64,000 nucleotides of DNA from Mesostigma viride (taxonomy: Eukaryota > Streptophyta > Mesostigmatophyceae > Mesostigmatales > Mesostigmataceae). Of the stretch, positions 17,618 through 57,407 are shown one piece after another. Position numbers and translations under genes: made by a program. The notes below the pieces were generated by a model. That model searched no databases. It worked only from the letters and a program-made list of their open reading frames with translations, and was not told where the DNA came from. The DNA lies in NCBI GenBank assembly GCA_009746045.1, contig RPFO01000406.1:2756229-2820228 (forward strand), read 5' to 3'. The first letter of the stretch is position 1. Every line of letters starts with the position of its first letter.

Positions 17618-17630
17618 TGGTATCGGAGGA
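17618..17630 (+). promoter_or_regulatory. Copia primer-binding site
   Basis: TGGTATCGGAGGA follows the 5' LTR immediately. It resembles the TGGTATCAGAGC site used by plant Copia elements with initiator methionine tRNA. Confidence 0.8.
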
Positions 17631-17636
17631 ATCTTC

Positions 17637-20153: not shown

Positions 20154-20159
20154 CTACTG

Positions 20160-21979: not shown

Positions 21980-21999
21980 TCCTTTGTGTTCAGCTGGCT

Positions 22000-22007
22000 A
22001 AGGGGGG
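22000..22007 (+). promoter_or_regulatory. Copia polypurine tract
   Basis: AAGGGGGG directly precedes the 3' LTR, where plus-strand DNA synthesis is primed. Confidence 0.85.
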
Positions 22008-37079: not shown

Positions 37080-38050
37080 CATTTGCAGATCGCGTTTTCC
37101 GCGGACCGGCACTGAACGCAAATGGTTTTCACCTTTGCGGCGTGCCGAATCAGAATATACGCGGTCACACGCGGAGCCCCCACAGACTTGGGGGTGGTCT
37201 CCTTCATCACTACTTGCCATCTATCCTTGCGTACCATCTGCCTCCATATTACAGACAAACCAGGAGGCAGCCCGGGTGTGAGCCCGTCACGTCTAGTGTA
37301 GCACATGTCCATTCCGAGTCTATCACGAAAAGTCCACGGGTGGCGGCCCTGCTGCGGGCAGCCTGGGGCACGCCAGGTGAGGACATATCGCCCAGTCTGG
37401 GCGGGCTTGGTGCCAGCTAGTCTATATGATGTGTCTACCTGATCTGTGCGGGCCAGGTGCCCGGCAAGGCCCAGGCGCCTGTGCCTAATAATGTGGGAAA
37501 CATAGGGCAAATCAGCGTACAAATCCTCATTACTAATGTGCAAACCAAAGGGGATGTTAAGGGCCTTGCGCAGCATCTTGGTGACGGTGCCGTCGAGTCG
37601 TTGCTCCAGCTCCTGCGTCAGTGTCCAGGTCTCGGCGCCGTAGGTCAGGATCGTCAGATTGACGACCGTGAAGAGGTCACACTTGACAATCCGGGGTAGG
37701 GCGGGGTTGCTCCACCAGCGGCGGTGGTCATGGAGTTGCGCCCACGCCATGCCGATCCGTGTCGTCAGGTCGTCCTCGCAGTCGGGAAGCCAACTGTCGA
37801 GCAGCTTGAAGCGGCCTGAAGGAGGGTAGTTGACCTCGGTGTCGTCTAAGAGGCGGAGTGTGGGTGGGGGCCCTGCCATGCCGAGGGCCAGGGCCTCCGT
37901 TTTGGGGCTGATTTCTAGACCAACCGCCCGAGCCTCGAGCGCCAGGCAGTCCAGCCAAAGTTGGGCAGACTCCGGCTTCTCGATGAGCGTGATGTCGTCG
38001 GCATAAATGAGGCCAGCTAGTAAATTCTGCTTGTTAGTCGGCCCCCCTTC
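37080..38050 (-). CDS. LINE reverse transcriptase, C-terminal part (truncated)
   Basis: The minus-strand frame begins in LINE sequence with EGGPTNKQNLLAGLIYADDI, containing the catalytic Y-A-D-D box. It continues with GLEISPKTEALALGM, the RT thumb-like region LTYGAETWTLTQELEQRLDG, and the LINE C-terminal block GLAGHLARTDQVDTS and GLSVIWRQMVRKDRWQVV. The residues before EGG in the open frame come from the E1 LTR and are not part of this protein. The N-terminal endonuclease and most RT fingers are missing because of 5' truncation. A relative lies at 8645-9124. Confidence 0.8.
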
Positions 38051-38694
38051 AGTTAGCATATTGGTGATGCAATATGCTAAGCATATCATACCTGAAGTGG
38101 CCTTTCCAACGCCGTGCTAGACGCCTCATTTGGACAAGGAACTTGAGAGTTATCAAGTCCCGAAGTAATGCCGCCGGACGCTACAGCAGTACCAGGACTA
38201 AGGACACGTGAGGGACAGGGCACGTGGCAGTGTTGGGTGAACCATCACACGTTACGTGTCACAGGACCGACTGTCACTAGGAGGTACTGTGGTCAATATT
38301 GGTTGATGGTACCAAGAATGTCACAGGACTTCAGGACTGGCAGTCCTGCAGGCCTGGGATGGACGGGTACTTGTCATGACGGATAAATCCAGAGCGTTAC
38401 TGTCATTCATGGAAGGACAGACGTCCTGGATTGATGCAACCAAGGAAATTGACAGTGGCGGACCTGCCAAGGCGTGCAAGGCCTGGCAGCAATGGTGAGA
38501 CCTAGAAAGGCTCGGACACAGCAGTGGCCAAGCGTCTTTTCCCAACACCGTCCGTGGGTACTGCCGCCTCAGGCTAGTGACCACAGGGTAGTGAGGCAAC
38601 TGTGGTAAAGGTTAAAAGCCGCTGGTTGAAACCATGGCTCCATTCATCACATCTTGGGAAGACCAGAAACTCACTGATCCGCGTTCATCTAAAT
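38051..38694 (+). repeat. E1 5' LTR
   Basis: Begins AGTTAGCATATTGG and ends ATCTAAAT, with boundaries fixed by the CCTTC target duplication; it lacks TG...CA ends. It starts with a perfect hairpin (TTAGCATATTG/CAATATGCTAA, 38053-38080). ORFs in it are repeated identically in the 3' LTR and are not genes. Confidence 0.85.
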
Positions 38695-38705
38695 CGTATT
38701 ACAGT
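38695..38705 (+). promoter_or_regulatory. E1 putative primer-binding site, complementary to its own 3' UTR
   Basis: CGTATTACAGT follows the LTR directly. It does not begin with TGG and so cannot pair with a tRNA CCA end, but it is the exact reverse complement of 45252-45262. Confidence 0.55.
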
Positions 38706-38718
38706 CTGGTCGACGGAT

Positions 38719-39683
38719 ATGTCGAATTCGGACTCTGAAGCTAGGACAAACACCTTTGCGCGTGCAGCAAGGGTAGCGGCGTCCAGTCCAGTACCCGCAG
38801 GAGGGCACGAGGACTCGGGGAAGTGCGCCGAAATATTCGTGCGGTGTCGGCACCGGGCGAGTACGTCCGAGGAGCAGCCGAGCAGCTGCTGAGATTTCGC
38901 GAGGACCTCGCGGAAATCATCAGAAGGCTGCCAGCGTCTTGGCGGGCTGGCCACACAAACGCATTCGCGTTTGAGCAGGTGGTCACTCTGCTTTTGCAGA
39001 TAATTGCCATAAGCCTCGGGGGTGCCCGAGAGATAAACGACCTTGTCGCCAATCTCCGCCTTGGGGACGACTACACCGGCGTGCCAAACGTGGTGCAGGT
39101 CGCCCGGGACAGGCGGGAGGCCATCGTTCGTGGCAGTACGCAGGCGTTGGTGGCAGAGTGCCAGAATCTGGCGCACTCTGTCTTAGAGTTGACCAGAGGC
39201 GCTGCTGATCGTGTCTTCATTACTCTTAATCCCTTCTCCATCTACACTAGTCGGGATACTCCACATTCTCGCCGAGAGTTAAACCAGCTAAGTTTGACTG
39301 TCGACGTGGTTGGCGGTCGAGAGGTCTCAGCCGACGACGCCTTCTACGACTTCGTAGATCAGCCAGCAGGGGCGGTAGTACAGCCGGCCCAGAGGCGTCA
39401 CGAGGGCGACGGCTCTCAGGAGGGCCGTGAGCAGGCGCAGCGGGACGAGCTTAATCGCTACCACATTGACGACAACGTTGGTTTAGGTGAGGCCCATTTG
39501 TTGAGGTGGGGGCGTTCTCGCTGGATACGTGATTACGCGTATGGTTTGAGGCTTCCGGTGGTTATTAGGCCTGTGCCTACTCACGACGACCAGGGGCAGC
39601 CATTGAATCCGGTGGAGGGACCGTTCCACGAGCCAGCACCTGCACCGGTTGCAGGAGAAGCTTCGTCTGAAAACGAGGCTTGA
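38719..39683 (+). CDS. E1 ORF1: pre-gag protein of unknown function
   Basis: The probable start is ATG 38719 (MSNSDSEARTNTFARAA); the main body is open from 38823 in another frame, so one shift lies near 38800-38830. The body contains EQLLRFREDLAEIIRRL, LLLQIIAISLGGAREINDLV, DAFYDFVDQPAGAVV, EGDGSQEGREQAQRDEL and GRSRWIRDYAYGLRLPV. The same blocks in the same order occur in E2 (55944-54746) at clearly lower than LTR-level identity, so the protein is under constraint or recently was. I know no standard LTR-retrotransposon protein in this position and recognise no domain. No signal peptide or membrane segment is evident. It is followed 68 bp later by the gag ATG. Confidence 0.65.
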
Positions 39684-39751
39684 GGGGGTGGAGGATAGGT
39701 GGAGAGTTTGCTGTTTTCTTGTTGCAAAGTTGGTCGCAGCCATTGTATATA

Positions 39752-41071
39752 ATGCCTAGGAGGGCAAGCCGGGGTGCGGCGACATTCGAGGAGCAACGGG
39801 AGCGAACGGCAGAGGAGGACATCGCCAGAGAGGAAGGGGAGGCGATGGAGGAGAGGGGCGTGGAGGCGCCAGCTGGGCAACCTATCCCAGAGATGGACCC
39901 CAGGCCGGGAGAACACACAAGCGGTGGCGTGATGGGCAAGCTGAGGCGGAGAAAGTCAAGCGTGCCAGGCGACCTACGGAGGCAGTGGTGCTCACAACGC
40001 CTGGTGAGGAGGACGCCATCGTCACCCCAGGTGTGCGTGCTGCAAAGCAAGCTGCTGTTCACGATAGGGTGTCTGGTATGTTGCCCGAGCGTTTGGAGGC
40101 TAGGATTGACCCTCCCCAGGCACCACCAGTGCGTGTGGGGAGTGTGTTGCCTGGCACCCGTCCATTTTCTGATGCTGTGACAGTCATGAATGGGCAGAAA
40201 GCGCTCAACCCTCCCTGAAGCAAGACAACCTGGATAAATGGCTTGATGACATGAAGCTAGTCGTGGGCTCTGTCGCAGCAGGTGTGGATATTGTCAGGGT
40301 GTTTCACTCTTCCACCGCAAACAAGGGTCGTCTGAAAGGGTCAATGACATGGCTAGGCATGCTCTGAAGAGGGGCACACTTGGCTGCAGTTCCTGGATGA
40401 CATCAAGGAGGAGTTTTCTGACAGGGTTCACAATCTCACCATGGAAAAGAAGAGAGAATTTGATGAGTTTGAGATCAAGGGTGAGGTGGCTGCTGAGCTG
40501 GCCAGGTTTGAGTTGATCGTGGAGGCAGGCAAGAAGCAGGGCTTCAGTGTGACAGTCAGGGCAGCAGCAGACCACTTCTTGATAAGATGGGCTTGTCAGA
40601 GGAAGGTAGGGCTACTGCTAGGCAGCTCTGTGATCTCACTGATGGCACCTGGGGGGCTCTGAAGCGTGTGATACTAAACTTCAGGACCCGGGTCCCTACC
40701 TGCAAGGGTATCAGTTCTCAGGGAGGGTCAGCGTCTCAGGCTAGCCAGGGCAAGAACCGTACCCCATCTGGGACACGGTATGGCAGCAGGAGAAGGAAGC
40801 AGGCCCAGAAGGAGCAGAACCAGGGTGGTGGAGGAGGTCAGCAGGGGAACCAGAATCAGGGGAACCAGTCTGGCAACCGTAACAGCCATCAGCAGGGTAA
40901 GGGTGGTGGCCAGGGGCAGAATAACAATCAGCCTCAGGCAACCAGAACAAGCAGGACAGCAAGGCCCCAGGGGGAGGGTCTGGCAAGAGCAAGTGTTTTG
41001 CTTGTGGCAAGGAAGGTCACTGGAAGAGGGATTGCCCAAACAAGAAGAAGGGGCAGTCTGATCAGAAGTGA
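39752..41071 (+). CDS. E1 Gag (several frameshifts)
   Basis: Starts at ATG 39752 in the context TGTATATAATGCC, which is conserved in E2. It begins MPRRASRGAATFEEQRERTA. Successive pieces in different frames match the E2 Gag: DAVTVMNGQKALNP (~40170), LDKWLDDMKLVV (~40230), EFDEFEIKGEVAAELARFE (~40460). The end is a zinc knuckle, CFACGKEGHWKRDC (~41000-41040), before TGA at 41069. At least three single-base shifts interrupt it. The nucleocapsid knuckle is immediately followed, in the same frame after the stop, by pol. Confidence 0.6.
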
Positions 41072-41074
41072 CTA

Positions 41075-44000
41075 GTGAAGCAGTCCCGTGTACATAGTGA
41101 GACACCCTGTGGGGACACAGCTTCACATGTAAATAAATCTGGGCAGGGTGCCACCTCTGATCAGCACCAGGGGTGTACTGATGTTCTCATTCCACAAGAT
41201 TGCATGCATGCTGCAGCACAACAATCCCCTCAACTGTCAACAGGTGGAGGGTCCCCAGACAGGGTTGGCTCTGGGAGCCTAGATGCTCTGCTGGGAGGGT
41301 CTGCTGGGTCCTCTGGATCCAAGATGCAGAAGGTGGATGTTGCGTCCTCACACGCAGGGCCCGTCCAGGCGTCTTCCCAGGTGCGTAATCTGGCTAGGCA
41401 ACTGAGCTACACGGATGCTGGACGCAGGCTGCACAATATCTTTGGTCACACAGCCATGGCTGAGATGTTTGGTTGGAAGATTGGAGATGAGCCACTGAGG
41501 GAAGCATGCAGGGCTGCAGCTGAGCAATGTACTTGTAAGGAGAATGCTGCCAAGAAGCCAAGGTCCCATGCTAGGGAGCCTGCCAGGGAGAAGGGGGACA
41601 TCCAGGTAGACGTCCAGCATATCAGGGGCTTATACATTTTGGTGGCAGTGGACAGATTTAGCAGGTACAGGCTGCTCCAGATTCTGCCAGATATGAAGGG
41701 GAATACCCTGCTGCTGGGCTTGCAGACTCTCTTACCAGGCTTTGGGGTGTACAAGACAGTACAGGCTGATATTCAGTTTGAGTGCCTACTGTCACAGCAG
41801 GAGCAACTGCCATGCAAGCTGCTGGTCACGCCCAGGGAGAGCCATGGACAGCAAGGTGCTGTGGAGAGATCCATCAGGGAGGTCAAGACCGTAGTGCTGG
41901 CAGAACCTAAGGTGCCACTGGTAGCATCTGCTTTGGAGAGGGCAGTGTGGACCAGGCAGGTGGAAGAACAGTTGAACCTCAGAATAAACTACTATTATGA
42001 CGGGGTGGCTGTCAATCCTGTAGCACTGCAGTTTGGGATGCTAGCCCAGGAAGTGGTCCAGGCATGCTTGAGGAAAGCAGACAGGGTGTTTGCTCAGTTG
42101 AGACGCAAGGATAGGGGCTGGAATGTGCTGAGGCCTCAGGTGGGGCTGAAGGTCAGAATGTGGAAGGAGCCATCAATGCAGGGCAAGAGGGGCAAGTGGC
42201 AGAACGGGGTGGTGACCTGTGTGGAAGATGCCAATCGTTCCTGCCTTGTGGCCTTGGAGAGTAATCCCAGGCATGTTTACAGGTTGAGCTGGGCCAACGT
42301 CAAGGAACGCAAGCCACATGCAATCTGGCCTGCAGACGGGCCTGGACCCCAGTGTTGGCTGGAGGGCCAGGTTAAGGACCAGGTAGTTGATGTGCCTGTC
42401 ACTGACGTGGGAGGTGGCTATCCCTCTGATGATGATGAGGTGCAGGAGGCAACTGCATCACCTGTGGTGGAGCCAACGGGGGCTGGGCCTGCACCAGGGT
42501 CCAAGAGGCCACTCATGGCAGACATTGTCCGGTCGCTCATGTTCAACAAGCACAAGGATCCCAAGGTATCTAAGTTGACTGAATGGGGTTCTTGCTGGGC
42601 TGCTACCCTAGAAGTGGATACTAACTCAGAGGTGTCTATCATCAGGGTGGAGGATGCTCAGGGCCTGAAGGTGAATAAGGCTGGCTGCAGGGCAGTGAGT
42701 GACTTTACGGGCACTGTAACAATGAAGATCCTAGGGGAAGTGACTGTGCCTATCCTGGGTGTCCCCACTGCGTTCTGTGTGGTGGAAGGGTACCAGGGGC
42801 CTGCCATTTTGGGCCAGAATTTCTTGTGCATGCCAGGAGTGACTCTGTCAGCAGATGAGCTTGCACTAGAAGGTCACGGCAGTTTGCCCCTCCAGAGATA
42901 TCACTACTCCAAGGGTCTAGCTGTGGCAGTCAAGGCTGTGAAGGGGCAGCAGAGTGTGGGGCCTGAAGGCAAGGAGCCCATTGCTGAGGACTTGTTGATC
43001 ATCCCAACCACCCTAGATCCACGGGACTTGGGGGTGCACAAGTACCAGATTGCTGGTCACAGTCCTATTTCCTGGCACCAGTTGGTAGAGTTGATGCAAA
43101 GCCCCAAGATGGCTAAGGCATGGATTCTAGGGTTTGTCTCCAGTGGGCATGACTGGATAGTGTCTAACTGTGCTGAGCCTGTGGATGAGTTGCCCAGGGA
43201 GCATCAGTTGCTAAGGCTCTTGTTTGTGCTCAAGCTGAAGGAGATAGACGGTGTGCAGGTGCCACATGTGAGGCCAGTTGTGACTGAGTACCATGGCACG
43301 GGGGAGCTGACAGATGAGGAGTTGTATACGCCTGGGATGCTGCATGATACCTGGAGGATTGTTCTGTGTATATATCTGTCTTTCCTGGTCAAGGGCATTG
43401 CGTACAGCTCTGTGCTGATTGATTTCAAGAGGGCTTTTCTAAAGGTGATGTGGAGCAGGCCAAGGAGACGTGGCGTGATATCCCTCCCTTCTTTGTAACA
43501 GTGCCCAAGGTGTGGAGAGCAGAGATCAAGTCAAAATATCTCAGAATACTCAAGGGTTTGGAGGGTCTCAGGTCCAGCCCTATCATCTGGAGAAAGAGCC
43601 TGGAAAAGTTTCTGAAAACTCACTGTGGCTTTACTGTGTCTCCAGTTGATCCTTGCTTGTTCCAGAGTACTCATGAAGGGTTGCCTGTGTTTGCATCTCT
43701 GCATGGAGATGACCTGCACCTTTTAGGGCCTCCTGAGTGGGTGGATTCAGTACTGTCCAAGATCCAGAAGAGGTTTGAGTTAGGAAAGGTCCAGCACATG
43801 AAGCAGGATGAGCCCATGGTGTTTTGTGGAATGCAGGCCACGCTGATCAAGAGGGCAGGTACTTGGTTTATCAAGATGGAGGGTGGCAACAACTATCCTC
43901 AGCAGATCATTGATGCCCTCCAGCAGCCCATTACCCAGGCCAGGTGTGCCACAATCAGGGGAATGTTGGCTTGGCTAGCTAGCATTTGTGCCCCAGATTT

Positions 44001-44610
44001 GTTGGTGCTGAGTAGGCTCACAGATGCTCAGCTGGTTGAGGTAGGGGCAGAGCAGGTGGTTGAGTCTGTCAGGAGCTCACCTCCACTCATACTGGCAGCT
44101 GTGGACTTGTACAAACCACTCAACATGGTGCTTTTTGTGGACAGTTCCATGGACAGCAGGAAGGTGACGGATGTCAGGGGTAGGGCAGCAGCACTCATTA
44201 CACTACAACAGGAGCACACTTCTCTGGTCAGCTGGTACAGTAGGTTACAGAACAGGGTGACGCCCAGCAGTGACATTGCTGAGTGCAGGGCAATATGTGA
44301 GGGGCTACACACTGCTCTTTACCTCAGGGAGTTATTCTACCAGCTCTGTCAGGTAGCTTCCTGTAGCTTGCAGCTGCACACACTGGTCAAGACAGACAGC
44401 ATGGGCATGGTGCAGTTTGTGCACAGACAGCTCGCCAGGAGCAGGGATCTGGATTATTTGTTGCTGAAGGAGATGTCTTACCTTGCTCATCTTGAACATG
44501 TGCCTGGTGTTGACAACCCAGCAGACGCCCTCACCAAGCTGGAGAGCAAGGCTGAGCTACAATACCCTGTGCTCAAAGGGCTCATGGACCCCTTTTCTGG
44601 TGGGACTTGA
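41075..44610 (+). CDS. E1 Pol: integrase-protease-RT-RNase H (one frameshift)
   Basis: The first frame runs 41075-43498 and the second 43450-44610; a missing base near 43445 separates them (compare AFLKGDQDQARQTW in E2). Counting from 41075, a zinc-binding-like LHNIFGH lies near residue 119. The integrase core has Asp179 (VDVQHIRG), Asp232 (QADIQFEC) and Glu264 (GQQGAVERSIREVK), a D,D31E spacing, followed by a C-terminal VGLKVRMWKEP domain. The protease is downstream of integrase: VDTNSEVSII with Asp515, and GPAILGQNFL near 575-584. RT follows (VLIDFKRAFL, Asp783), with HGDDLHLLGP in the second frame. RNase H has VLFVDSSMDSRK and SDIAECRAICEGLHTALYLR. Usual Copia order is PR-IN-RT-RH. Confidence 0.8.
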
Positions 44611-45573
44611 AGTCCAGCCTTTGCCAGTTGGTGGCTGACCAGTGCTGTTGTCCCCAGGGGGGAGGGCAACAGGTAGCCTACCTGTCACCAAGCAGGTAGA
44701 AGGCTCAACAGGAGCAAGCTCTTCCTGTAAAGGATTAGCACAGTGGGATGCCTTTGGCCTCGGGCAGTTAGGCCATGACAGGGCAGGCCATGTTGAGAGT
44801 TCTTCCAGGTTGTTTGTATATATCTCTCTTGTTTAGTTTTCTTTAGCTGTGAATAAGTGACAACCTTGGATATTATGGTGTTGTAACCTGACAGTTGGGC
44901 CTTGCTGGTGCAGGCTGGTCCACTGGGAACACTCAACATTGGTTTTGGTGGATATTCTATAATAAACCATAATCATGTTGTATGCCAATCTCTCTTGTTG
45001 TCTGTCATGTGACCAGGTTAAGTTTAACCTGGGGTTCTGGGGTAGGGTTCGATTCCCTAGTTGAGCCACAGCCTGGTATGTATGACTCCTGGGCTTTAAC
45101 ACCCAGTGATGACATGGGCTCCCCATCAAGCAGTGGCACAGTGGTGTTGAAGTGGTTTCCATTGGTGAACATTTGGATGGATGATGCCTGGAACGCTCGG
45201 GGCGGGCGCCATGAAACGGGCGCCAGTGATAACTGGGAAGACCAGGAACTCACTGTAATACGTTTCCTGTAGTCAGGGCCTCTCATTCAGATATCCAGGA
45301 TATGTTGCCTAAGGAATATTCAACATCCTCCTTTAAGCCCAAGCCAAGGTACAGTTGCAAAAGAAAGGGTTGGGGATGACCTGCAGGTCAAGTTAATGAT
45401 CAGATGGCAGGGTTGAACCATAGATCCCTAAGAAGGATACCATTAAGGTGGCAAAAGGGGTGCTCATGAGGCTTATTATAAGTCCAGGGTAACCAGTTGT
45501 CCATTTCACAAGGCAGCAAGGAATGGGTTGGTCATGGTGTGAAGCTTGCAGCTCCAAAACAAGAAAGGGTTGG
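44611..45573 (+). other. E1 3' UTR with structured blocks conserved in E2
   Basis: Non-coding. From left to right it holds the inverted repeat CCAGGTTAAGTTTAACCTGG (45013-45032); a hairpin with tRNA T-arm geometry, TAGGG-TTCGATT-CCCTA (45043-45059); the block CTGGGCTTTAACACCCAG; a GGCGCC-loop-GGCGCC hairpin (45205-45224); then GACCAGGAACTCAC running directly into the anti-primer site (45252-45262). Near the 3' LTR is a purine-rich AAGAAAGGGTTGG, the likely polypurine tract. The same items, in the same order, occur in the E2 3' UTR. Confidence 0.65.
45252..45262 (+). promoter_or_regulatory. E1 anti-primer site
   Basis: ACTGTAATACG, exact complement of the 11 nt following the 5' LTR (38695-38705). 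Confidence 0.55.
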
Positions 45574-46217
45574 AGTTAGCATATTGGTGATGCAATATGC
45601 TAAGCATATCATACCTGAAGTGGCCTTTCCAACGCCGTGCTAGACGCCTCATTTGGACAAGGAACTTGAGAGTTATCAAGTCCCGAAGTAATGCCGCCGG
45701 ACGCTACAGCAGTACCAGGACTAAGGACACGTGAGGGACAGGGCACGTGGCAGTGTTGGGTGAACCATCACACGTTACGTGTCACAGGACCGACTGTCAC
45801 TAGGAGGTACTGTGGTCAATATTGGTTGATGGTACCAAGAATGTCACAGGACTTCAGGACTGGCAGTCCTGCAGGCCTGGGATGGACGGGTACTTGTCAT
45901 GACGGATAAATCCAGAGCGTTACTGTCATTCATGGAAGGACAGACGTCCTGGATTGATGCAACCAAGGAAATTGACAGTGGCGGACCTGCCAAGGCGTGC
46001 AAGGCCTGGCAGCAATGGTGAGACCTAGAAAGGCTCGGACACAGCAGTGGCCAAGCGTCTTTTCCCAACACCGTCCGTGGGTACTGCCGCCTCAGGCTAG
46101 TGACCACAGGGTAGTGAGGCAACTGTGGTAAAGGTTAAAAGCCGCTGGTTGAAACCATGGCTCCATTCATCACAGCTTGGGAAGACCAGAAACTCACTGA
46201 TCCGCGTTCATCTAAAT
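45574..46217 (+). repeat. E1 3' LTR
   Basis: 644 bp, one noticed difference from the 5' LTR (CACAGCTTGG versus CACATCTTGG). Confidence 0.85.
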
Positions 46218-46913
46218 CCTTCTCCAAGCTCGTTCAAGAAAACGATGCTTCAGCTTTACCTGGCATGGCTGGCATTACCTTGGCCCAGGCGGTGGCGGCA
46301 AAATGGCGCATTGTGGCACACCAAAGTTGTGCAGCATGGTCGCTAGATTCGGCAATTTCTGGCCACCCTTGCACGTTTACGACCAAATCATCATAAAAAG
46401 TAAAAAGATACATCCTTTAAAATACGCCGGAAAGGTATTGCTGTCAATGTTTCTATCGTCCGGCCTGATCGCAGTTTTTTCCAGCAAGAACGCTGCCGAC
46501 ACCTATCAAATGGCATTCCCGCGAACCAAAATTGGCTTGTATGATCTTTAGGACGTATAAAATCAATTTCCTGAGTTTGGACAGAAAAATTCGAACGCAA
46601 GCGTAAATGCCATGCGTGGGCGCAAGCCGCCATGGCCAGGTCGTCTTTTTCCGGAATGCACGTTGTACGTGAAAAAGTACCCTGACCCCTTGTACTTTGA
46701 CCGGCCAGAACACCTCTATAACTTTGTCAAAAGTATGCGAACCCTACATAGTACCATGCTTTAGAGAATTTTATAAACTTTCGATCTTCTCAGCTAAACT
46801 TTTCCTAATTCTCAATAGATTTCGCGGCATTTGGTCGCCCAAGATGGGGCCGATGCGTCGGCTCTAACTCGATTTTAGGCGGAAAATCGGCAGCCAGACC
46901 ATTTAGGGGTTAA

Positions 46914-47239
46914 CGTTTGCTAACGAAGCATCTGTTCCTGTACAGAACACTTGCAATCTTACTTAATTCTAATTGTACAGTATATTGTTGACCTGAGCCT
47001 ATGTATTCTCGCTTTCATGTGATTAAAAGTCTGAATATACTGTACATAACTTGCACATATAGATATTTGTACCGGGTACACTAGTTTGTCCATCGGTTGG
47101 TTCAGAGCAATGAACAAAGCTGCATGCCTACATGTATCTGGTTGAGCTTTAGCCTCTCAGTGTGCAGTGTGTTGTATCACTGTTTCCGCATGCATCGCTC
47201 CGGCGTCATTGGTATGCCTATGTGTTGCATTGCGCACAG
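46914..47239. other. LRR intron 3, right end
   Basis: AT-rich and non-coding; it ends in the acceptor TGCATTGCGCACAG. No repeat recognised. Confidence 0.5.
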
Positions 47240-47311
47240 GAACTTGGGGAAGAATGACTTGGACGGTTTCCTTCCGTCAAGTATCGGGTCATTGACATCG
47301 CTGACATTTCT
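47240..47311 (+). CDS. LRR receptor-like gene, exon d: one LRR
   Basis: 72 bp between TTGCGCACAG and GTAAGTCC, encoding NLGKNDLDGFLPSSIGSLTS and then LTFL. This is a complete 24-residue plant-type LRR (N-x-L-x-G-x-(I/L)-P-x-x-(I/L)G-x-L). Phase is identical to the other LRR exons. Confidence 0.8.
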
Positions 47312-48170
47312 GTAAGTCCTGGCCAGTCCTGAAGTGAAGTAGCTGGCGTGGGTGCAGCGCCCGCTTGTAGAATGCAAGGAAATCGGGCTGGTTTGTATTA
47401 AAATTTACAAGGAAGACATTGTGATACTGTAAGACAGCCGCTCACAGTCTGAGAGCTTCTAATGGGAAATGGGATCCACCATGCTTCATGCTGTAAGTGT
47501 TCCACACAACACACCCACAGTACCCCCTGATGGAGGATGCTATTTATAGACAACAAGGGCCTTGATGTAGGGTCACCCACTTACACACCCCTAAGTAGCC
47601 CCACGTATATGCATCCTTGGCTTCTTTAGTATGGCCTGGAAATAATTATTAGGCTGGATGGGGGCAGTTGTGGCGCAGTTTGACACCTGGTGCTGTCCCT
47701 TGGGTACGAGTAAGAGACGGTTGAGGGGCTTCATTTAGTCAACCTGACCATGACGCCACTGGTCTTCCAGCAAGCAAATGCGATGAGCCATTTTAGCGCC
47801 CAATGCCAACCTCTAACCTGCCCACTGTTGCCTGTGGTTACCACTCCAACAACCATGCTTAAGCCTTGAAGGTAGAGCCATGTAGGACAGTACTAGAAAG
47901 ACGCCGAGACTCTCGTGAGGTTCTAGCTTTATTGCCATGGCTACCTTCCTTGGCCTTATATCAACAGTCAGTACAGGAATAAATCCACCGCGTTTATCCA
48001 GCACTCAGGTGATGGATGACCTTGATTTGCTGCCTTGATTAGTATGAGTCCTTGGTAGGAGCCTGCAAGACCAACAGTCACTTGCAGTTCCTGTGCTGAC
48101 CTGTACAATCAATTATGTACGACTGACTGTTCCATACCTCAAGGTTCCTAATACTTTGTACGCGGCGACC
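47312..48170. other. LRR intron 4, left part
   Basis: Non-coding. TTGTGGCGCAGTTTGACACC at ~47667 resembles a tRNA/SINE A box, but no matching B box at the right distance was found. Confidence 0.45.
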
Positions 48171-48819
48171 AGTTAGCGAACAGCCAGAACTGTGAGTTCC
48201 TGGTCTCTCGCGCCACACAACGGGATGAGCCAAAGTTGCAAAGGCAGCAACCTTTTAACCCGTGCACCAAGCCACGACCACGGTGAGCGGTTCCACGACC
48301 AATGTGGGAGCCTCGGTTCGTGCTTGCCCAGATAGCTGGTCATCCCCCATGACCAAGCTATATCCTTTGCGTTGTTCCTCGTTCCCATCGGTGTGACGAG
48401 GCACGTGCAGGCAGGCAAGCAAATCCTCAACGTCCACTGGCATCAGTGCAGAGCCAGGACGAACTGGATTTGCCTAGACTCTGCAACCTAGGAAGTACAG
48501 GACCTGTCACAAGCCTGCAAGGCCTAGTATCCTTGCAGACCTGTGCCAGTTCCTGTAGTCCACCAGTCACAGGCTGCTGCTCTTCTGGTCTACGTGGACC
48601 ACAGTCACGTGATAGTCAGGCTAAGCCTGCGCAGGCACGGCCTGCCACGTGTCCTGTCCACTACACCAGAGGACTGTACCTCAGTCGGCCACGGACGGCT
48701 AGGACTTCGGGACCTCATATCTTTCTTGTCCCTTGTCTGTTTCAGGCGGTCAGCACGGCGTTGGAAAGGTCTTTCCAAACTGCATCCACTTAGCATATTG
48801 GTTGCCCAAAATGCTAACT
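48171..48819 (-). repeat. E2 3' LTR
   Basis: 649 bp; begins (minus strand) AGTTAGCATTTTGG and ends GTTCGCTAACT. The polypurine tract AAGAAGAAAGGGTTGG lies just inside (48820-48837). Confidence 0.85.
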
Positions 48820-48837
48820 CCAACCCTTTCTTCTTTT

Positions 48838-49825
48838 GGAGCTGGACCAGCTTGAAAAAACCTAACCTTGCTTGTGCCCACTCAGCCACAGACCGCTTGG
48901 TCCCTTGAGGTTGATCAGACCTTTGAGGGCCCAGGTTCCTGCCTCCTTTGGGTAACAACATATCTGCCCTTGGACCAGGCTAGGTGTACTGGCCAGTGAA
49001 TCAGAGGTCACCCCAGGTTATCCCCTGACCCCTTGGTCAGCTCCCAACCTTTCCTTGGGAACTTGGTGCTGGATTAAAGTCAAGGCACATTACCTAGTCC
49101 AATGGCTGGGATTACAGGATGCCAAGAACGTACTATTGTGAGTTCCTGATCTTTCACAGTTATCACAGGCGCCCGTTCTTATGGCGCCCGCCTTGGCCAG
49201 CCTTTCCCTTATGCTCAAAGAACACAGGTAGCACCTAGGCAAATACTGCCTCCTTGGGGAGCCCATGTCTTCACTGGGTGTTAAGCCCAGGAATCACTCA
49301 TGCCAGGCTGTGGCTCTGCTGGGGAATTGAACCCCACCCCAACCTCCAGGTTTATAGGTGACCTGGAACTTTACACAAGAGAAACATTACAACCATGGAA
49401 CAACATGAGAATGACATGACATGATTATGTTTTATTCAAGCATTATATAACCCAGAATGTGGCCCCCTGGCAACCATGTTCCACATGGTCACACAACCAG
49501 GTTCTTTATTAGCAACAGGTTGGAAACAAGCACTAGAAAACATATATACAGCAACCTGTAAGAACCAACATTCGGGTTGCCCTTGCATGGCCTAACTGTT
49601 TGAGGCCAAAGGCGTCGACTTAAGTCCTGGCGACTCTTCTGAACCCCATGGGGAGGGCCAGGCATGATTCTCAGCTGGTAGGAGTGACATTCCACACCAA
49701 CTCCTGTCCAGGAGGGTGTACCTAACCCTGAAGGACCGGCTGTCAACCAGTAAGCACCAGTCACCACTTGGTACTTTGGTCAAGCAGCCCACTGGGGGCA
49801 CCCAAGCTGAAGCAAGGCCTGGTCT
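48838..49825 (-). other. E2 3' UTR with conserved structured blocks
   Basis: In sense order: inverted repeat CCAGGT...ACCTGG (49346-49366); a T-arm-like hairpin TGGGG-TTCAATT-CCCCA (49320-49336); a block with CTGGGCTTAACACCCAG; the GGCGCC-loop-GGCGCC hairpin (49169-49188); CAGGAACTCAC running into the anti-primer site (49129-49138). The T-arm-like stem differs from E1 at one pair, which changes from A-T to G-C. Confidence 0.65.
49129..49138 (-). promoter_or_regulatory. E2 anti-primer site
   Basis: CAATAGTACG on the sense (minus) strand, exact complement of the 10 nt following the 5' LTR (55969-55978). Confidence 0.55.
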
Positions 49826-52800
49826 CTATGGCCGCCCGTGTAAGGGGTCCATGAGCCCACGGAGCAGGGGGTACTGCCTCTCCGCCTTCTCCTCCAGCTT
49901 GGTGAGGGCATCTGCAGGGTTGTCCACACCAGGCACATGTTCAATGTGAGCTAGGTAGGACATCTCCTTGAGCAACAAGTAGTCAAGGTCCCTGCTCCTG
50001 GCCAGCTGCCTGTGCACAAATTGCACCATGCCCATGCTATCAGTCCTCACCAGTGTGTGCAGCTGCAACCTACAGGAAGCCACTTGACATAGCTGGTAGA
50101 AGAGCTCCCTCAAGTAAAGAGCAGTATGCAGCCCTTCACAGATTGCCCTGCACTCAGCAATATCACTGCTGGGTGTAACCCTGTTCTGCAACCGACTGTA
50201 CCAGGTAACAAGTGAGGTGTGATCTTGCTCCAGGGTAACTAATGCTGCTGCCCGGCCCCTGACCTCTGTGACCTTCCTATTGTCCATAGAACTGTCTACA
50301 TAGAGAACCATGTCAAGGGGCTTGTACAAATCCACAGGACCCAGTATGAGAGGGGGAGACATCATGACAGCCTGCACCACACTCTCAGCACCCACCTCAA
50401 CCAGCTGGGAATCAGTAAGTCGACTCAGAACCAGCAAGTCAGGGGCACATATACTTGCAAGCCATGCCAGCATGCCCCTGATGGTAGCACACCTAGCCTG
50501 CGTGATGGGCTCCTGCAATGCATCTACAATCTGCTGTGGGTAGTCCTTACCACCCTCCATCCTGATGAACCACGAGCCCTTGGCTTGGAACAACGTAGCC
50601 TGCATGCCACAGAAGACCATAGGCTCATTCTCCACCATGTGCTGTATCTTACCCAGCTCAAACCGCTTCTGGATCTTAGCCAAGACAGCCTCAACCCAGT
50701 CTGGTGGACCTATGAGATGCAGGTCATCACCATGCAGTGAGGCAAAGACAGGAAGGCCATTGTAGGACCCTTGGAACAAACAGGGATCCACTGGAGACAC
50801 AGAACCCACAAGTATTCTTCAAGAATTTCTCTAGGCTCTTTCTCCAGATAATGGGACTGGACCTGAGACCTTCCAACCCTTTCAGAATTCTCAGGTACCT
50901 GGCCTTTATCTCTGCTCTCCATACAGCAGGTACAGTCACAAAGAAAGGAGGGATATCTCTCCAAGTCTGCCTAGCCTGATCTTGGTCACCCTTGAGAAAA
51001 GCCCTCTTGAAATCAATCAGCACAGAGCTATAGGGCACACCCTTAACCAGAAAAGACAGAAATATACACAGCAGAATCCTCCACGTGTCATGCAGCATCC
51101 CTGGAGTATAGAGCTCCTCATCTAACAACTGGCCAGTGCCATGATACTCGGTTACAACTGGTCTGACATGTGGCACCTGGACACCATCAACCTCCTTGAG
51201 CTTGAGGACAAACATCAATCTGAGCAGCTGGTGAACTTCTGGCAGCTCATCCACAGGTTCTGCACAGTTGGAAACTATCCACTCATGCCCAGAAGCAACA
51301 AAGCCAAGAGTCCATGCCTTAGCCATCTTGGGGCTCTGCATCATCTCGACTAGCTGGCGCCAGGGAATAGGACTGTGAGCAGCTATCTGGTACCTGTTTA
51401 CCCCTAACTGCCTTGGATCAAAGGTGGTTGGGATTATCAACAAGTCCTCAGCTATGGGCTCCTGACTCTGAGGACCCTCAGCTGGCTGACTCCTAACAGC
51501 CTTCACCGCCACTGCAAGACCCTGGGAATAGTGATATCTTTCAAGGGGGAGGCTGCCCCTGCCTTCTAGTGCCAACTCATCAGAGGTCAAAGTAACCCCT
51601 GGCATGCACAAGAAGTTCTGTCCCAGAATGGCAGGCCCCTTATAGCCCTCTACCACACAGAACGTGGTGGGCACCCCTAAGATAGGCACACTCACTTCCC
51701 CAAGGATCTTCATGGACACCTTTCCTGAGAAATCAGACACAGCAAGGCAACTGGGATGGGACATCTGTAAGCCTACAGCATCCTCTTCCCTGATGACAGA
51801 CACCTGTGAGTTGGTATCTACCTCCATTGTAGCTGCCCAGCACGACCCCCACCCCGTGAGCTTGGATACCTTGGGATCATGTTTGCTGCGCATGAGTGCT
51901 CGGATGACGTCCGCCATGAGAGGCCCCCGGGCCTTAGGTGGCTGCCCCGTCCCCTCTGGCCTTGTGACAGTTGCTTCAGCAGCCTCCTCCTGCTCGTCAT
52001 CTTCCAGCAGGGACAGACCATCATCCACTACCAGAGGATTGTTAGCTGCTGCTGCCTGGCTCTGGCCTGGCTCCTCAACCCAGCTGGGAGGGCCTGGCCC
52101 GTCTGCAGGCCAGATTGCATGTGGCCTTCTTTCCTTGACATGAGCCCAGGACAACCTGTACACGTGCCTTGGATCCTTTTCCAAAGCCACCAGGCAAGAT
52201 CTGTTAGCTTCTTCCACACGAGTGACAACCCCATCCTGCCACTTCCCCCGCTTGCCTGGAATAGATGGTTCCTTCCACATCCTGACCTTCAGCCCCACCT
52301 GAGGCCTCAGCACATTCCAGTTCTTGTCCTTACGTCTCAGCTGGGCAAATAACCTATCTGCCTTCCTAAGACTGGCCTGCACCACGTTCTCAGGTAACAA
52401 GCTATACTGCAGGGCCAGGGGAGAGACAGCCACACCATCAAAGTAATAGTTAACCCTGTGGTTCAGCTGCTCTTCTATCCCCTTACACCAGGCTGCCCTC
52501 TCTAAGGCAGATGCCACAAGTGGCACTGACTCTGCTGCTAGCACCACTGTCTTCACTTCACGTATGGATCTCTCTACAGCCCCTTGCTGCCCATGACTCT
52601 CCCTGGGGACTACTACCAGCTTACAAGGCAGCTGGTCCTGATGCTTGAGCAAACAGTCAAACTGCAAGTCTGCCTGCACACTCTTGCACACCCCAAAGCC
52701 TGGGATCAGGGCCTTCATACCCAACAACAAGTGGTGCTCCTGCATACCAGGCAGAACGTCTATCAGCCTATATCTGCTGAACCTGTCCACTGCCACCAAT

Positions 52801-53357
52801 ATATACAAGCCCCTGATATGCTGGATATCCATCTGGATGTCGCCACGCTCCCTAGCAGGCTCCCTAGCATGGGACTGAGGTGGGTGAACAGCATTCTCCT
52901 GGCAACCACAGTTCTCAGCAGCAGCCTGGCATGCCTCCCACAAAGGCTCCCTACCTAGCTTCCAAGCAAACATTGCTGCCTGCCCAGAATGCCCAAACAT
53001 ATGATGCAATCTATGGCCAGCCTCAGCATAGCTCAGCACTCTGTCAGTACTGACCTGGCGAGACGTCTGAACCGTGTGTGGGGACACATGATCCACTCCT
53101 GAGGTTCCAGGGCTTCCTGCAGGCCATCCTGACTCCCCAAGCCAGGTCCTGCTCCCTGGACCGCTCCAGGCCCTTCCAGCAAGGTCCTTGGCCCTCCAGG
53201 CCAGCACCTGCTGGAGACCCACCACCTGCATGAGGCATAGGGAATTCAGCTGCAGCATTGTTATTGCAATCCAGTGGAAGAACAACATCTTTACACCCTT
53301 GGTGCTGCACAAGGGGCACACCCCCATCCTTATGTACATCCAACACACCTTCCCCAA
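49826..53357 (-). CDS. E2 Pol: integrase-protease-RT-RNase H
   Basis: The main frame is open from 53357 to 50727 and the last part from 50809 to 49826, with one shift near 50800. The first ~100 residues, up to about 53050, are better read in the neighbouring frame. Domains match E1: RLHHMFGHSG zinc-binding-like motif; integrase core with MDIQHIRGLYILVAVDRF, QADLQFDC and GQQGAVERSIREVK; protease LEVDTNSQVSVI and GPAILGQNFLCMPG; RT LIDFKRAFLKGDQDQA and HGDDLHLIGP; RNase H VLYVDSSMDNRK and SDIAECRAICEGLHTALYLR, ending near DNPADALTKLEEKAE. Integrase again precedes protease. All catalytic acids seen in E1 are conserved. Confidence 0.82.
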
Positions 53358-53394
53358 GGGGTGATTGACTATTTACAGGGGATGATGTAGCTAG

Positions 53395-54746
53395 TCACTG
53401 CTGCCCGACTGGCCCCCTGCCCCAGCAGGCTTGGCCTTCCTGTCAGGACACTCACGACGCCAGTGACCTTCCTTGCCACACACAAAGCATGCTCCACCCT
53501 TCTTCCCAGACCCAGCCCCACCCTTGCCAGGCTTCCCTGGCCTCCCTGAGACTGTCCACCCTGCTTGCCCTGGTTGCCTTGAGCTTGGCCCTTGCCTTGC
53601 CCTTGGCCACCCTTACCCTGCTGACCACCAGCTTGCTGGCTCCCAACCCCTCCTTGGGAACCTGCACCCTTGCCACCCTGAGCCCCCTGCCTCTGGCGCC
53701 TGAAGCGCTTACGCTTGTTGGGCCTTGCCCCATCACGGGCTGGGTACCCGGGGACATCACCTTGGCCCTGCACAGCGGAGGTGGCATTGCTGCCATGGGA
53801 CTGGATAGCTTTGCAGGCAGGATCTGGCTTCCTTATGCTGAGGATTACAAGCTCCAGAGCACGCAAGGAGCCATCAGTCTGGTTAAGAAACATGCGGGCA
53901 CTGTTCCTCCCATCCACACTCAAACCCATACGGTCCAGGAAATAGTCTGCCAAGGCCCTATCTGTGACCAGGAAGCCATACTTGGCCCCCTTGTCTCTGA
54001 TACGGTTGAGCCTAGCCCATTCCTCTGCCACAGGGCCCACTATCTCAAAGGTGTCATACTGATGTTTATAGTAGTTGGTGAGGTTGAGAACCTTGTCAGA
54101 GAACTCCTCCCTCAACCCATCCAGGAACTGTGCCCAGGTTAGCTTATCCTTGACACCAGTCCTAGCCTTTTCCCTGACACGCTCTGACGAGTCCCTGTTG
54201 CACGTGGACGAGTGAAACACTTGCACTAGGTTGACAGTGGGGTCCACGGAGAGCACAACCAGCTCCATGTCCTCTAGCCACTTGTCTAGAGCTTCCTGTG
54301 CTAGTGGTGGGTTAAGAGGCTTTTGTCCATTCATAAGCGTGACTGCACTCATGTGAGGTCTCGACCCTGGCAGCGCTTCACCGGCTCCACCACAGTGGGT
54401 GTCACAGTAACAACGCCACTTGGGCCAGCAAGCACAGGGGAGAGCACATCCACGTGAGGCCTCTTACCATTGCCGTCAGCGGAGGTGTCCCTCTTACGCT
54501 TCTCCACGGCAGGTTGCCCATTCGCCACCGTTATTGCATCAGATGCTCCTAGCGCCCGCGCCTTGCGCGCCTCCTCCACCGAGTCTTCGTGCCGTCTCTT
54601 GCTGCCTGGTCTCTTTCCCCCATCGCCCTCGCTGGCTGGGATCGCCTCCCCACCAGCTGCTCCTTGTCTTGCCGAGGCTCCTGGCTTGCTCCAGCCGGTG
54701 CCTCCATCTCGCCCTTGTCGCCGTCTCCCGGTTTGCCACGAGGCAT
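53395..54746 (-). CDS. E2 Gag (frameshifted)
   Basis: Starts at ATG 54746 (MPRGKPGDGDKGEMEAPAG). The largest intact piece is 54352-53369, with TLMNGQKPLNPPLAQEALDK, LTWAQFLDGLREEFSDKVLN and YFLDRMGLSVDG, then a Gly/Gln-rich tail. In yet another frame the end carries a zinc knuckle, CFVCGKEGHWRREC (~53440-53490), and stops at 53395. At least three shifts are needed to join these. The stop codon of ORF1 overlaps the start codon as TAATG. Confidence 0.62.
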
Positions 54747-55944
54747 TATATACAGTGGGATGGCAAACAAAACAGGCGATAGACAAGGAAAACAGGCTCA
54801 AGCGCTGGTGCTGCCGGAAGAAGCCGCTGGCGCTCCTCAGCTATGGCCTCCTCCTCACGCTCCTGCGCTGTGCGCGCCACCGGTGTCCCTACGCGCGGAA
54901 CTGAACGGACCTCCTCCGCGTTGTAAGGACCTAATACCCGGCTCACCGGCCTCCCGGCTGGTGTCTGCTCCACCGGCAGCCTAGGCGCACTACCACGGCG
55001 ATACCACTGCAGGTTCCTGACCCACCGACTGCCACCACCCCGCCTGTCGTTCCGTGACCCCCGACCAATCTCAGCGAAGTCGTGTTCTGGCTCAAACGGG
55101 ATATGCAACTCCGCCCTACGCCGAGCTGAGTAGCCCTCGTTTGTGCCGTCCCCTTCGTCAATCTGCTGTGACGAACGAGCTATGATGCCCGTGGGGCGAT
55201 CCACGAACTCGCTGTGAAAATCCTCGTCGGTGACGTCCCGACCGGTGATGACTGTCACCGTTGGCCCACACGCCCCCGGCCTGCTTTGCAACCTCGGTGT
55301 ATCCAAGGTCGACCAAATGCCGGCTGGTCGTGTCGTGATCACCCAGTGATCGGCGTGACCACGCGCCTCTTGGGTCAAGATATTGACCAGGTGCTCACAC
55401 GTCTGAGCTACCACTTCAGCCGAATCCCACGGACTGTCGGCTTCACGCGTCTGCGCGTCCCGTATAATATGTGACGCGTCGGTCCCCTCCCCCAGCGAGC
55501 TTGTCGCCACCCAGTGGTTGTACAATCTGGTACCACCTAAACAAATGGCCACCAGCTGGCCCAGCGTTTCACGCGCTAAGTCCAGCGCCTGAATGGTGAC
55601 GTGCCCGCCCTGGTACGCGACCTCCAAACTGTAGATCAACGAAGCTATTTCGTCGCGAATAGCGACAAGCCGCTCCGTGCAGACCCGACCCGTCTCCCCT
55701 GGCGACGTCGTCGCCCTTATCCTCATCACCACTGGGTCGTTTGCCGACGGCCCTGCTGCGTTTCCAAACACAGCAACCCAACCTCCTTCCGCAAGACCCC
55801 TCGCAACGTAGGCGGCCTGCACAAACGTAGAAGCGTTGGATGGGTGGGAATAGGGGAAAAACGCGTTCTCGCGCGCTGGCGCCTCGGGAGCTGCTTCGTG
55901 CCCGGGGATGACTCAGGTGTCTCGACCCGAGCCTCGGCCGACAT
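54746..55944 (-). CDS. E2 ORF1: pre-gag protein, homologue of E1 ORF1
   Basis: The probable start is ATG 55944 (MSAEARVETPESSPGTKQ); the main body is open from 55822 in another frame. It contains SPGETGRVCTERLVAIRDE, LGQLVAICLGGTRLYNHWVA, DFHSEFVDRPTGIIARSS, EGDGTNEGYSARRRAELH and GGGSRWVRNLQWYRRG, aligning in order with E1 ORF1. It runs on to ...RLFCLPSHCI and ends in TAA overlapping the gag ATG (TAATG), an arrangement that permits termination-reinitiation. Function unknown. Confidence 0.65.
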
Positions 55945-55968
55945 GAAAAACCTTGCACAACAGAAATG

Positions 55969-55978
55969 CAATAGTACG
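55969..55978 (-). promoter_or_regulatory. E2 putative primer-binding site
   Basis: CGTACTATTG on the sense strand directly after the 5' LTR; complementary to 49129-49138 and not to a tRNA CCA end. Confidence 0.55.
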
Positions 55979-56627
55979 AGTTAGCGAACAGCCAGAACTG
56001 TGAGTTCCTGGTCTCTCGCGCCACACAACGGGATGAGCCAAAGTTGCAAAGGCAGCAACCTTTTAACCCGTGCACCAAGCCACGACCACGGTGAGCGGTT
56101 CCACGACCAATGTGGGAGCCTCGGTTCGTGCTTGCCAAGATAGCTGGTCATCCCCCATGACCAAGCTATATCCTTTGCGTTGTTCCTCGTTCCCATCGGC
56201 GTGACGAGGCACGTGCAGGCAGGCAAGCAAATCCTCAACGTCCACTGGCATCAGTGCAGAGCCAGGACGAACTGGATTTGCCTAGACTCTGCAACCTAGG
56301 AAGTACAGGACCTGTCACAAGCCTGCAAGGCCTAGTATCCTTGCAGACCTGTGCCAGTTCCTGTAGTCCACCAGTCACAGGCTGCTGCTCTTCTGGTCTA
56401 CGTGGACCACAGTCACGTGATAGTCAGGCTAAGCCTGCGCAGGCACGGCCTGCCACGTGTCCTGTCCACTACACCAGAGGACTGTACCTCAGTCGGCCAC
56501 GGACGGCTAGGACTTCGGGACCTCATATCTTTCTTGTCCCTTGTCTGTTTCAGGCGGTCAGCACGGCGTTGGAAAGGTCTTTCCAAACTGCATCCACTTA
56601 GCATATTGGTTGCCCAAAATGCTAACT
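55979..56627 (-). repeat. E2 5' LTR
   Basis: 649 bp, nearly identical to the 3' copy (differences noticed at CTTGCCAAG/CTTGCCCAG and CGGCGTGACG/CGGTGTGACG). Confidence 0.85.
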
Positions 56628-56645
56628 CCAACCCTTTCTTCTTTT

Positions 56646-56850
56646 TTTCGACCAGGTCTAATGCATGTCCTGCCACGTGCCTATGCCCGTCACGCCTTAA
56701 ATTTTGGTTCCGACACGCCTTGACCCGGCGGCACAGCTTCGGGACCTGATATCTTCTACGTCCCTTATCTGATTTAGGCGGTTGGCACGACGTTGGAAAG
56801 GTCTTCCCAAGCTCTAACGCTTCGCACATCGGTGTCCCAATATGCGAACT
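56646..56850 (-). repeat. Diverged LTR fragment of the E1/E2 family
   Basis: On the minus strand it begins AGTTCGCATATTGGG with the family hairpin. It then shares GGAAGACCTTTCCAACG, AAGATATCAGGTCCCGAAG and GCACGTGGCAGGACA with the E2 LTR. It abuts the 18-bp polypurine-like sequence that precedes the E2 5' LTR. Confidence 0.65.
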
Positions 56851-57407
56851 GCTACTATATCAGAGTGACGCCTGTGCATTGTTTTAAATAGGAATCGATC
56901 CTCCCAGCTTGTATGTACACGGTCCACTTATTGTGCTACGTTGGTTTGTATTGCTTTCGCAAGTCAACACGGGCGGTTTGATGCGAGTGCTGCATGGGTA
57001 AGCCTTCTTGGTTCGCTGGGTAGGGAGCAACTGCATGGTGTGCACTGGCTTCTCCTACCAACCGTGAGTGCCCTGTACATTATTAGCTCTGCTTGGCATG
57101 CAGGCAATCGTAACACAATTATGTAATTGGTAGAGGCATATTGCTAACTTGCATAATTTTTTTCCTTACATTTTTGTGTGTATGCACAAAAAAGAGCTAT
57201 GTTTTTTTTATTATGCATGCTGATTACTTCATACTTATTTAATGGCCGATTTAAGTATTACTTGTAGTTCTCTTTGCCTTGGAATGAAGAGCGTCCCTGA
57301 GTCCTTCCATAAAGAGGCCTTGCTTTGTTTGCCAATGAAGCAATCCACCCCTCAGTTACTGTCTACAAACTGCTGCTTTCTAACCTGTATGGCCTTGTTA
57401 CGTGCAG
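56851..57407. other. LRR intron 4, right part
   Basis: Non-coding; ends in the acceptor CTTGTTACGTGCAG. No repeat recognised. Confidence 0.5.

Follow-up and report, generated by a model that had tools for sequence, protein, structure and literature searches.

Copia-like retrotransposons of Mesostigma viride whose own genomic RNA, cut in the 3' UTR, may be the primer of reverse transcription

For plant long terminal repeat (LTR) retrotransposons, a survey found three types of primer, namely a whole tRNA, a half-tRNA and a self-primer from the 5' LTR (PMC6317226), and the International Committee on Taxonomy of Viruses (ICTV) profile of the Pseudoviridae sorts the genera of that family partly by the length of the tRNA used (PMC8515867). 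In retroviruses, the growing plus strand takes in a copy of the first primer bases and ends at a modified base of the tRNA, or farther on where this base is unmodified (PMC13191261). Here, we describe two related LTR retrotransposons, E1 (38051-46217, + strand) and E2 (56627-48171, - strand), in a stretch of 64,000 nucleotides of the Mesostigma viride genome (assembly GCA_009746045.1, contig RPFO01000406.1, positions 2,756,229 to 2,820,228), hereafter "the window." The primer-binding site (PBS) of each is complementary to a site in its own 3' untranslated region (UTR). We put at about 0.9 the probability that the Copia-like clade to which E1 and E2 belong primes reverse transcription with its own genomic RNA, cut in the 3' UTR.

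The pairing was first pointed out in a reading of the window from its letters alone (the sequence-only reading), and its particulars hold. The 11 nt after the 5' LTR of E1 (CGTATTACAGT) are complementary to ACTGTAATACG at 11/11 positions, and the 10 nt after that of E2 (CGTACTATTG) to CAATAGTACG at 10/10 (coordinates in Table 1); the two pairs differ, and each PBS fits the partner in its own element. Complementarity ends immediately beyond the paired 11 nt (E1) or 10 nt (E2), and the E2 site is the sole exact match within its element for the last 5 to 10 nt. From the end of the site to the downstream 3' LTR the distance is 311 nt (E1) and 309 nt (E2). The same block, CAGGAACTCAC, precedes both sites, with an overlap of two letters in E1 and one in E2, and it recurs near the U5 end of the LTRs, as CAGGAACTCAC in E2 and as the variant CAGAAACTCAC in E1. 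Neither PBS starts with TGG. Both begin CGTA, which makes priming by a tRNA CCA end unlikely, in contrast to an ordinary Copia element of the same window (16840-22785; two 778-bp LTRs, target-site duplication [TSD] GAAAT), whose PBS start, TGGTATCGGAG, we take to be of the tRNA-iMet type. It is important to remember that an exact complement inside the internal region was found for 30/2000 and 23/2000 random 10-mers (about 1-1.5%; for E2, computed with coordinates approximate by one or a few bases). A single match is therefore unremarkable, and what carries weight is recurrence across the genome with compensatory change.

All genome-wide counts refer to the 440-Mb host genome. The site pattern CAGGAACTCAC-N5-TACG occurs 764 times (reversed control, 1), and the LTR end plus PBS, CTAAMT-CGTAYTAYWG, 526 times (reversed control, 0). 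The first 100 of the 764 sites carry the words AATAGTACG (49), AATAATACG (33), and TGTAATACG (18), while the 74 PBS places taken from the 526, up to contig C336, hold CGTACTATTG, CGTATTATTG, and CGTATTACAG only, three of the eight words that the pattern allows. When these two samples were paired by contig, strand, and distance (6.0-7.5 kb), all 36 position-matched pairs among the matches listed were complementary. They fall into three types: 12 CTATTG/CAATAG, 11 TTATTG/CAATAA, and 13 TTACAG/CTGTAA. At a wider distance of 4-16 kb, 56/58 match, and both misses involve the C162 chimera, which has no normal 5' end. The LTR end of subfamily B lies outside the LTR plus PBS pattern, so its 5' ends were read directly; five of the nine predicted ends have an LTR end, and all five match (L023, L025, L026, L061, L063). 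A first reading of seven predicted 5' ends gave five matches, one decayed copy, and one case (L024) with no LTR end; among 20 more, eight have an LTR end and all eight match, six of them being also in the pair list. Between subfamilies, the compensatory changes amount to one base pair for A versus A', one for B versus C, and several for E1 versus the rest. In the broad sense, these would count as self-primed LTR retrotransposons, with an element-encoded putative primer that covaries with the PBS in 36/36 pairs.

The second line of evidence comes from "primer fossils," copies in which LTR and PBS run on into antisense 3' UTR. The pattern of LTR end, PBS, and GTGAGTTC (the antisense 3' UTR hairpin) has 10 genomic matches (reversed control, 0), all of which were read. 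Two duplicate pairs, C162 and C2044 (one event, 1517 identical bases) and C1504 and C2165 (one locus, 2762 identical bases and the same 5' flank), leave eight distinct loci. These include A, A-like, B, C, and E1 types, each with the PBS word of its own type, and their antisense runs extend from 17 nt to about 6.4 kb. In the three fossils of which both ends were read, 3/3 have an LTR at each end and a 5-bp TSD (GAGTA, GTTGG, AGGTC).

The first of these, C2111 (A-like), reads GAGTA, LTR, PBS, 5.0 kb of antisense, polypurine tract (PPT), LTR, and GAGTA. Its LTRs are identical at 646/647 positions, the antisense is the element's own RNA from E2 coordinate 7499 down to 2483, and sense sequence resumes 229 nt past the site. 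C1468 leads from GTTGG, LTR, and PBS into about 6.4 kb of mostly antisense sequence reaching an antisense PBS and U5, turns into sense U5, and switches at the common CCAGGA.CTCAC motif to the 3' UTR site, followed by PPT, LTR, and GTTGG; its LTR pair is identical (664/664), and the length to the antisense PBS is about 6.36 kb versus 6.39 kb in a C element. This antisense stretch may not be seamless, as parts are unmatched to our references and the 5' UTR by the antisense PBS is recognised over 12 nt only. C191 (AGGTC, LTR, PBS, 3.0 kb of antisense, sense 3' UTR, PPT, LTR, AGGTC) has a 5' LTR with an internal deletion of about 345 bp. Its distal sense 3' UTR begins exactly one base after TACG, preceded by antisense pol with no inverted 5' UTR, and this breakpoint would fit a template starting on the other side of the same cut.

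Among the remaining loci, C162/C2044 carries 1.5 kb of antisense (order in C162: 3' UTR, PPT, LTR, T, LTR, PBS, antisense), C1106 has 0.8 kb and then a jump, and in two C1978 loci (L084, L085) the antisense breaks off after 50 and 48 nt, each time within the loop of the conserved GGCGCC hairpin. C1504/C2165 is an otherwise normal E1-type 5' end whose PBS is now CGTATTACAGTGAGTTC, three substitutions having lengthened the identity with the primer from 11 to 17 nt. As a separate observation, the two LTRs of C162 (L079) are identical, 665 bp each, and joined by a single T, like the junction of a 2-LTR circle.

With a primer of plain RNA, occasional over-extension of the plus strand is to be expected, and the fossils fit a primer that is element RNA ending in TACG. 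Since the antisense runs reach several kb, they suggest that the copied primer was a long RNA. One of the two options in the sequence-only reading, an element-encoded primer cut from the 3' UTR, is thus supported as to origin by LTR-PBS sequence continuous with antisense 3' UTR and RNA body. The primer would apparently be longer than a short excised piece, being the body of the RNA up to TACG.

Nine aligned 3' UTRs share a conserved domain of about 230 nt that ends at TACG. Its hairpins are a T-arm-like one (GGGG-TTCRATT-CCCC), set within a longer stem, one with GGCGCC, and a last one, GTGA...CCAGGAACTCAC, after which comes the tail UARUACG. The T-arm-like hairpin with its TTCRATT loop is kept in 9/9; we take the loop to resemble a T-loop that a 1-methyladenosine (m1A) methylase could modify. 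The hairpin also resembles the B box of RNA polymerase III (Pol III) promoters. The last hairpin was named from single-sequence folds and then counted in the nine-sequence alignment: in the structure so named by us, 99.3% of cells pair versus 35-57% when slid, three pairs change on both sides, and four of five covariation measures beat nearly all shuffles. The pair closing the last hairpin is itself compensatory (U-A, but A-U in E1) and involves the first letter of the variable part. Single-sequence folds of the 3' UTR are not clearly above shuffles (z -0.56 and -1.69; 27/100 and 6/100 shuffles equally stable), so the structural claim rests on conservation. As GACCAGGAACTCAC or a close form is present in U5 too, our guess would be shared recognition of the U5 and 3' UTR motifs by one element protein. 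A scan of 38000-57000 against Rfam gave five matches, all below the gathering scores of their families.

The pairing, its covariation, the conserved 3' UTR, and the fossils with their target duplications can be read from the DNA itself; the steps that would connect them are as follows. The conserved 3' UTR hairpin (GUGA...CCAGGAACUCAC) would present a short tail ending in UARUACG, and tail and hairpin base together (10-11 nt) would pair with the PBS adjoining the 5' LTR, either of that RNA molecule or of a partner. We infer that the RNA is cleaved after ...UACG, perhaps by the RNase H of the element (as in Tf1) or by another nuclease. The 3'-OH of the long 5' piece would then prime minus strong-stop DNA through U5-R, followed by the jump to R, with a second RNA copy presumably as template. 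Plus-strand synthesis would usually stop once it has copied the first 10-11 primer nucleotides, at the foot of the last hairpin, a structure that may take the place of m1A58. In this way the PBS would be rewritten from the 3' UTR, so that the two sites stay matched, and now and then the plus strand would continue into the RNA primer and leave an LTR-PBS-antisense fossil.

Of the other explanations, the one that survives best, though we consider it unlikely, is that the primer is a separate small 3' UTR RNA and not cut genomic RNA, with GGTTCRATTCC of the T-arm as Pol III B box. That the conserved 3' UTR is of about 230 nt and ends at TACG would suit such an RNA, and it could act as primer in some rounds; the RNA that was copied seems instead to have been long, given antisense stretches of 3.0, 5.0, and 6.4 kb.

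Less probable is the other option of the sequence-only reading, 5'-3' cyclisation, if it is to be the sole role of the pairing and a host RNA the primer. Ty1 does circularise its RNA by a CYC5:CYC3 pairing that is needed for initiation, and its CYC5, as described, lies downstream of the PBS (PMC4974528), whereas the pairing here sits exactly at the LTR boundary, which is the position of a primer. The arrangement of a Ty1-like cyclisation without priming, with pairing outside the PBS and a separate primer, is not the one found. Nor does cyclisation alone predict a PBS that continues into antisense 3' UTR in DNA, and the genome holds such copies.

We would give equally little credit to DNA inversion, or to microhomology joining, as the source of the fossils, acting at the 10-bp inverted repeat that PBS and 3' UTR site make up. 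The two are indeed inverted repeats, and a junction alone is ambiguous. However, inversion would equally yield the mirror junction (antisense downstream 3' UTR, PBS word, 5' UTR), of which exact patterns, which would miss decayed mirrors, gave 0 cases for C, 0 for E1, and for A/A'/B a single match in AT-rich DNA with no element sequence around it, hence none that is genuine. The distal ends misfit as well, since sense sequence in C2111 resumes 229 nt beyond, C1468 crosses antisense U5, and C191 has pol in antisense. Inversion also explains neither the 17-nt PBS at the E1-type locus nor the covariation.

A host tRNA or half-tRNA primer of the Copia type has next to no chance, even though related Copia elements use tRNA-iMet or half-tRNAs (PMC6317226, PMC8515867) and the ordinary Copia of the window has TGGTATCGGAG as its PBS. 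Besides the missing TGG, each of the three covarying types would require a tRNA of its own, with a mimic in the 3' UTR, and the fossils show 3' UTR antisense after the PBS; a tRNA scan found 0 genes within the 64-kb window. Self-priming of the Tf1 kind, by the RNA 5' end, similarly self-encoded and with the same primer length (11 nt in Tf1), can be dismissed with like firmness, because the PBS is not complementary to the element's own RNA 5' end in five subfamily LTRs (best complement 7-8 of 11, longest run anchored at the primer 3' end 5), in agreement with the earlier remark that the present scheme would differ from that of Tf1.

Several points count against a cut genomic RNA as primer and should be kept in view. 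As the copies are related, independent covariation events number, by our estimate, about three and not 36. The search patterns exclude decayed copies, and one old decayed copy (site L001, 5' end L021) is mismatched at two positions. No LTR end was present at 12 of the 20 further predicted 5' ends, nor at L024 of the earlier seven. A genome search for breakpoints exactly after TACG in A/A' copies returned 0, an exact +1 start after TACG was seen once (C191), and the C-type chimeras may share history. For the 3' UTR, one of the five covariation measures (number of pair types) is no better than shuffles, and the RNAalifold consensus gave most of the structure but paired part of the last hairpin differently. 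Cyclisation may be an added role of the pairing. Finally, all of the evidence is the DNA sequence of one genome.

As to classification, E1 and E2 are LTR retrotransposons, E1 with LTRs, a PPT, and a TSD (CCTTC), and both are young, because their LTR pairs differ at just 1/644 and 2/649 positions. Their reverse transcriptase (RT) is of the RVT_2 type of Ty1/copia (Pseudoviridae), on matches of E 0.00038 and score 20.6 versus a Pfam cut-off of 31.6 in E1, and E 0.025 in E2; every match of RT to RVT_2 and of integrase to rve is under the Pfam cut-off scores. For the Pseudoviridae, the ICTV profile gives the order protease, integrase, RT-RNase H (PMC8515867), and here a protease-like block, unusually placed for a Copia-like element, follows the integrase, ahead of RT (42515-42910, +, in E1; 51533-51917, -, in E2). 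The block matches gag-asp_proteas at E 0.07 at best, in 2/2 members, and retroviral protease chains at E 0.15. An AlphaFold model of the integrase-protease piece has a predicted local distance difference test (pLDDT) score of 30, and for the order of the domains we depend on profile matches that are weak. In place of the host tRNA primer of Ty1/copia, there is a PBS (CGTA...) complementary to the element's own 3' UTR. With all matches weak, we regard E1 and E2 as a divergent Copia-like clade and not as clean members of Ty1/copia. No relative of the RT part of E2 was found among viral contigs.

Table 1. Features of E1 and E2, in coordinates of the window
Feature	Position	Strand	Remarks
E1 5' LTR	38051..38694	+	644 bp, AGTTAG...CTAAAT; 1/644 differs from 3' LTR
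E1 U5 copy of the motif common to the 3' UTR	38661..38674	+	GACCAGAAACTCAC
E1 PBS	38695..38705	+	CGTATTACAGT
E1 pol part: integrase (weak rve match), aspartic-protease-like, RT start	41075..43498	+	frame interrupted
E1 RT (RVT_2, weak) and RNase H (RVT_3, weak)	43450..44610	+	
E1 3' UTR T-arm-like hairpin	45043..45059	+	TAGGG-TTCGATT-CCCTA
E1 3' UTR conserved GGCGCC hairpin	45204..45224	+	
E1 3' UTR hairpin presenting primer tail	45225..45254	+	AGTGA...TCACT
E1 putative self-primer 3' end	45252..45262	+	ACTGTAATACG; proposed cut after 45262
E1 PPT	45558..45573	+	from sequence
E1 3' LTR	45574..46217	+	
E2 5' LTR	55979..56627	-	649 bp, AGTTAGC...GCTAACT; 2/649 differ from 3' LTR
E2 PBS	55969..55978	-	CGTACTATTG
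E2 pol: integrase, protease-like (51533-51917), RT start	50727..53357	-	frame interrupted
E2 RT-RNase H part	49826..50809	-	by likeness to E1; no own Pfam match
E2 3' UTR T-arm-like hairpin	49320..49336	-	TGGGG-TTCAATT-CCCCA
E2 3' UTR hairpin	49137..49167	-	TGTGA...TCACA
E2 putative self-primer 3' end	49129..49138	-	CAATAGTACG; proposed cut after 49129
E2 3' LTR	48171..48819	-	

The pol frames of both window copies are interrupted. Both have a 5' open reading frame (ORF) upstream of gag (E1, 38823-39683, +; E2, 54746-55822, -), neither of which has a Pfam match with E ≤0.05. No clear TSD was found around E2; upstream of its 5' LTR (56627-56820) lie a PPT-like AAAGAAGAAAGGGTTGG and the relic of an LTR, with 83% over 77 bp. 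Elsewhere in the window, a long ORF at 31106-33382 (+) may, judging by its residues, encode a DIRS-type RT.

Among the titles and abstract openings brought up by searches of an open-access library, outside which most subscription journals lie, we found no description of 3' UTR-derived priming, and a 3' UTR self-primer differs from all three primer types that the plant survey lists (PMC6317226). We think it probable that this is a fourth class of LTR-retroelement primer, in which the genomic RNA body, cut at a structured 3' UTR site, primes its own or its partner's PBS, one RNA of the pair being spent, the other serving as template, and the PBS being rewritten each cycle. If true, such a primer frees the element from host tRNA, and it poses the problem of how a self-cutting genome is completed. 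We would then recommend rescanning Copia-like elements that lack a tRNA PBS. The fossils provide a general, RNA-free test of retroelement primers, namely a PBS running into the antisense of the primer.

How, then, does this scheme compare with those already described? Retroviruses use a tRNA, about 76 nt long, as their primer, whereas here it would be an RNA of kilobase length, on which a hairpin may serve as the stop. What the two would share is a PBS copied from the primer during plus-strand strong-stop synthesis, and the over-extension seen in retroviruses when the tRNA is without m1A58 (PMC13191261). The CYC5:CYC3 pairing of Ty1 and the bipartite 5'-3' PBS of Ty3 are similar in that 5'-3' contact of the genomic RNA aids initiation; unlike here, their primer is tRNA-iMet, and the RNA segment that pairs does not do the priming (PMC4974528). 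Self-priming has also been predicted within the Copia superfamily, for the TAR lineage (Houba, Osr-1) of plant Ty1/copia, with the difference that TAR elements are described as releasing theirs from the 5' LTR (PMC6317226). Closest in principle are Tf1 and Tj1 of the Tf1/Sushi group, where the element's own RNA primes, the PBS is short (10-11 nt in our elements) and adjoins the LTR, and a cut frees the 3'-OH (PMC4600332). Tf1/Sushi elements are Ty3/gypsy, however, and E1 and E2 Copia-like; and whereas Tf1 is primed by a segment from the 5' end of its RNA, the primer here would apparently be the RNA body, with its end in the 3' UTR, at a site that lies about 6.4-6.9 kb past the PBS.

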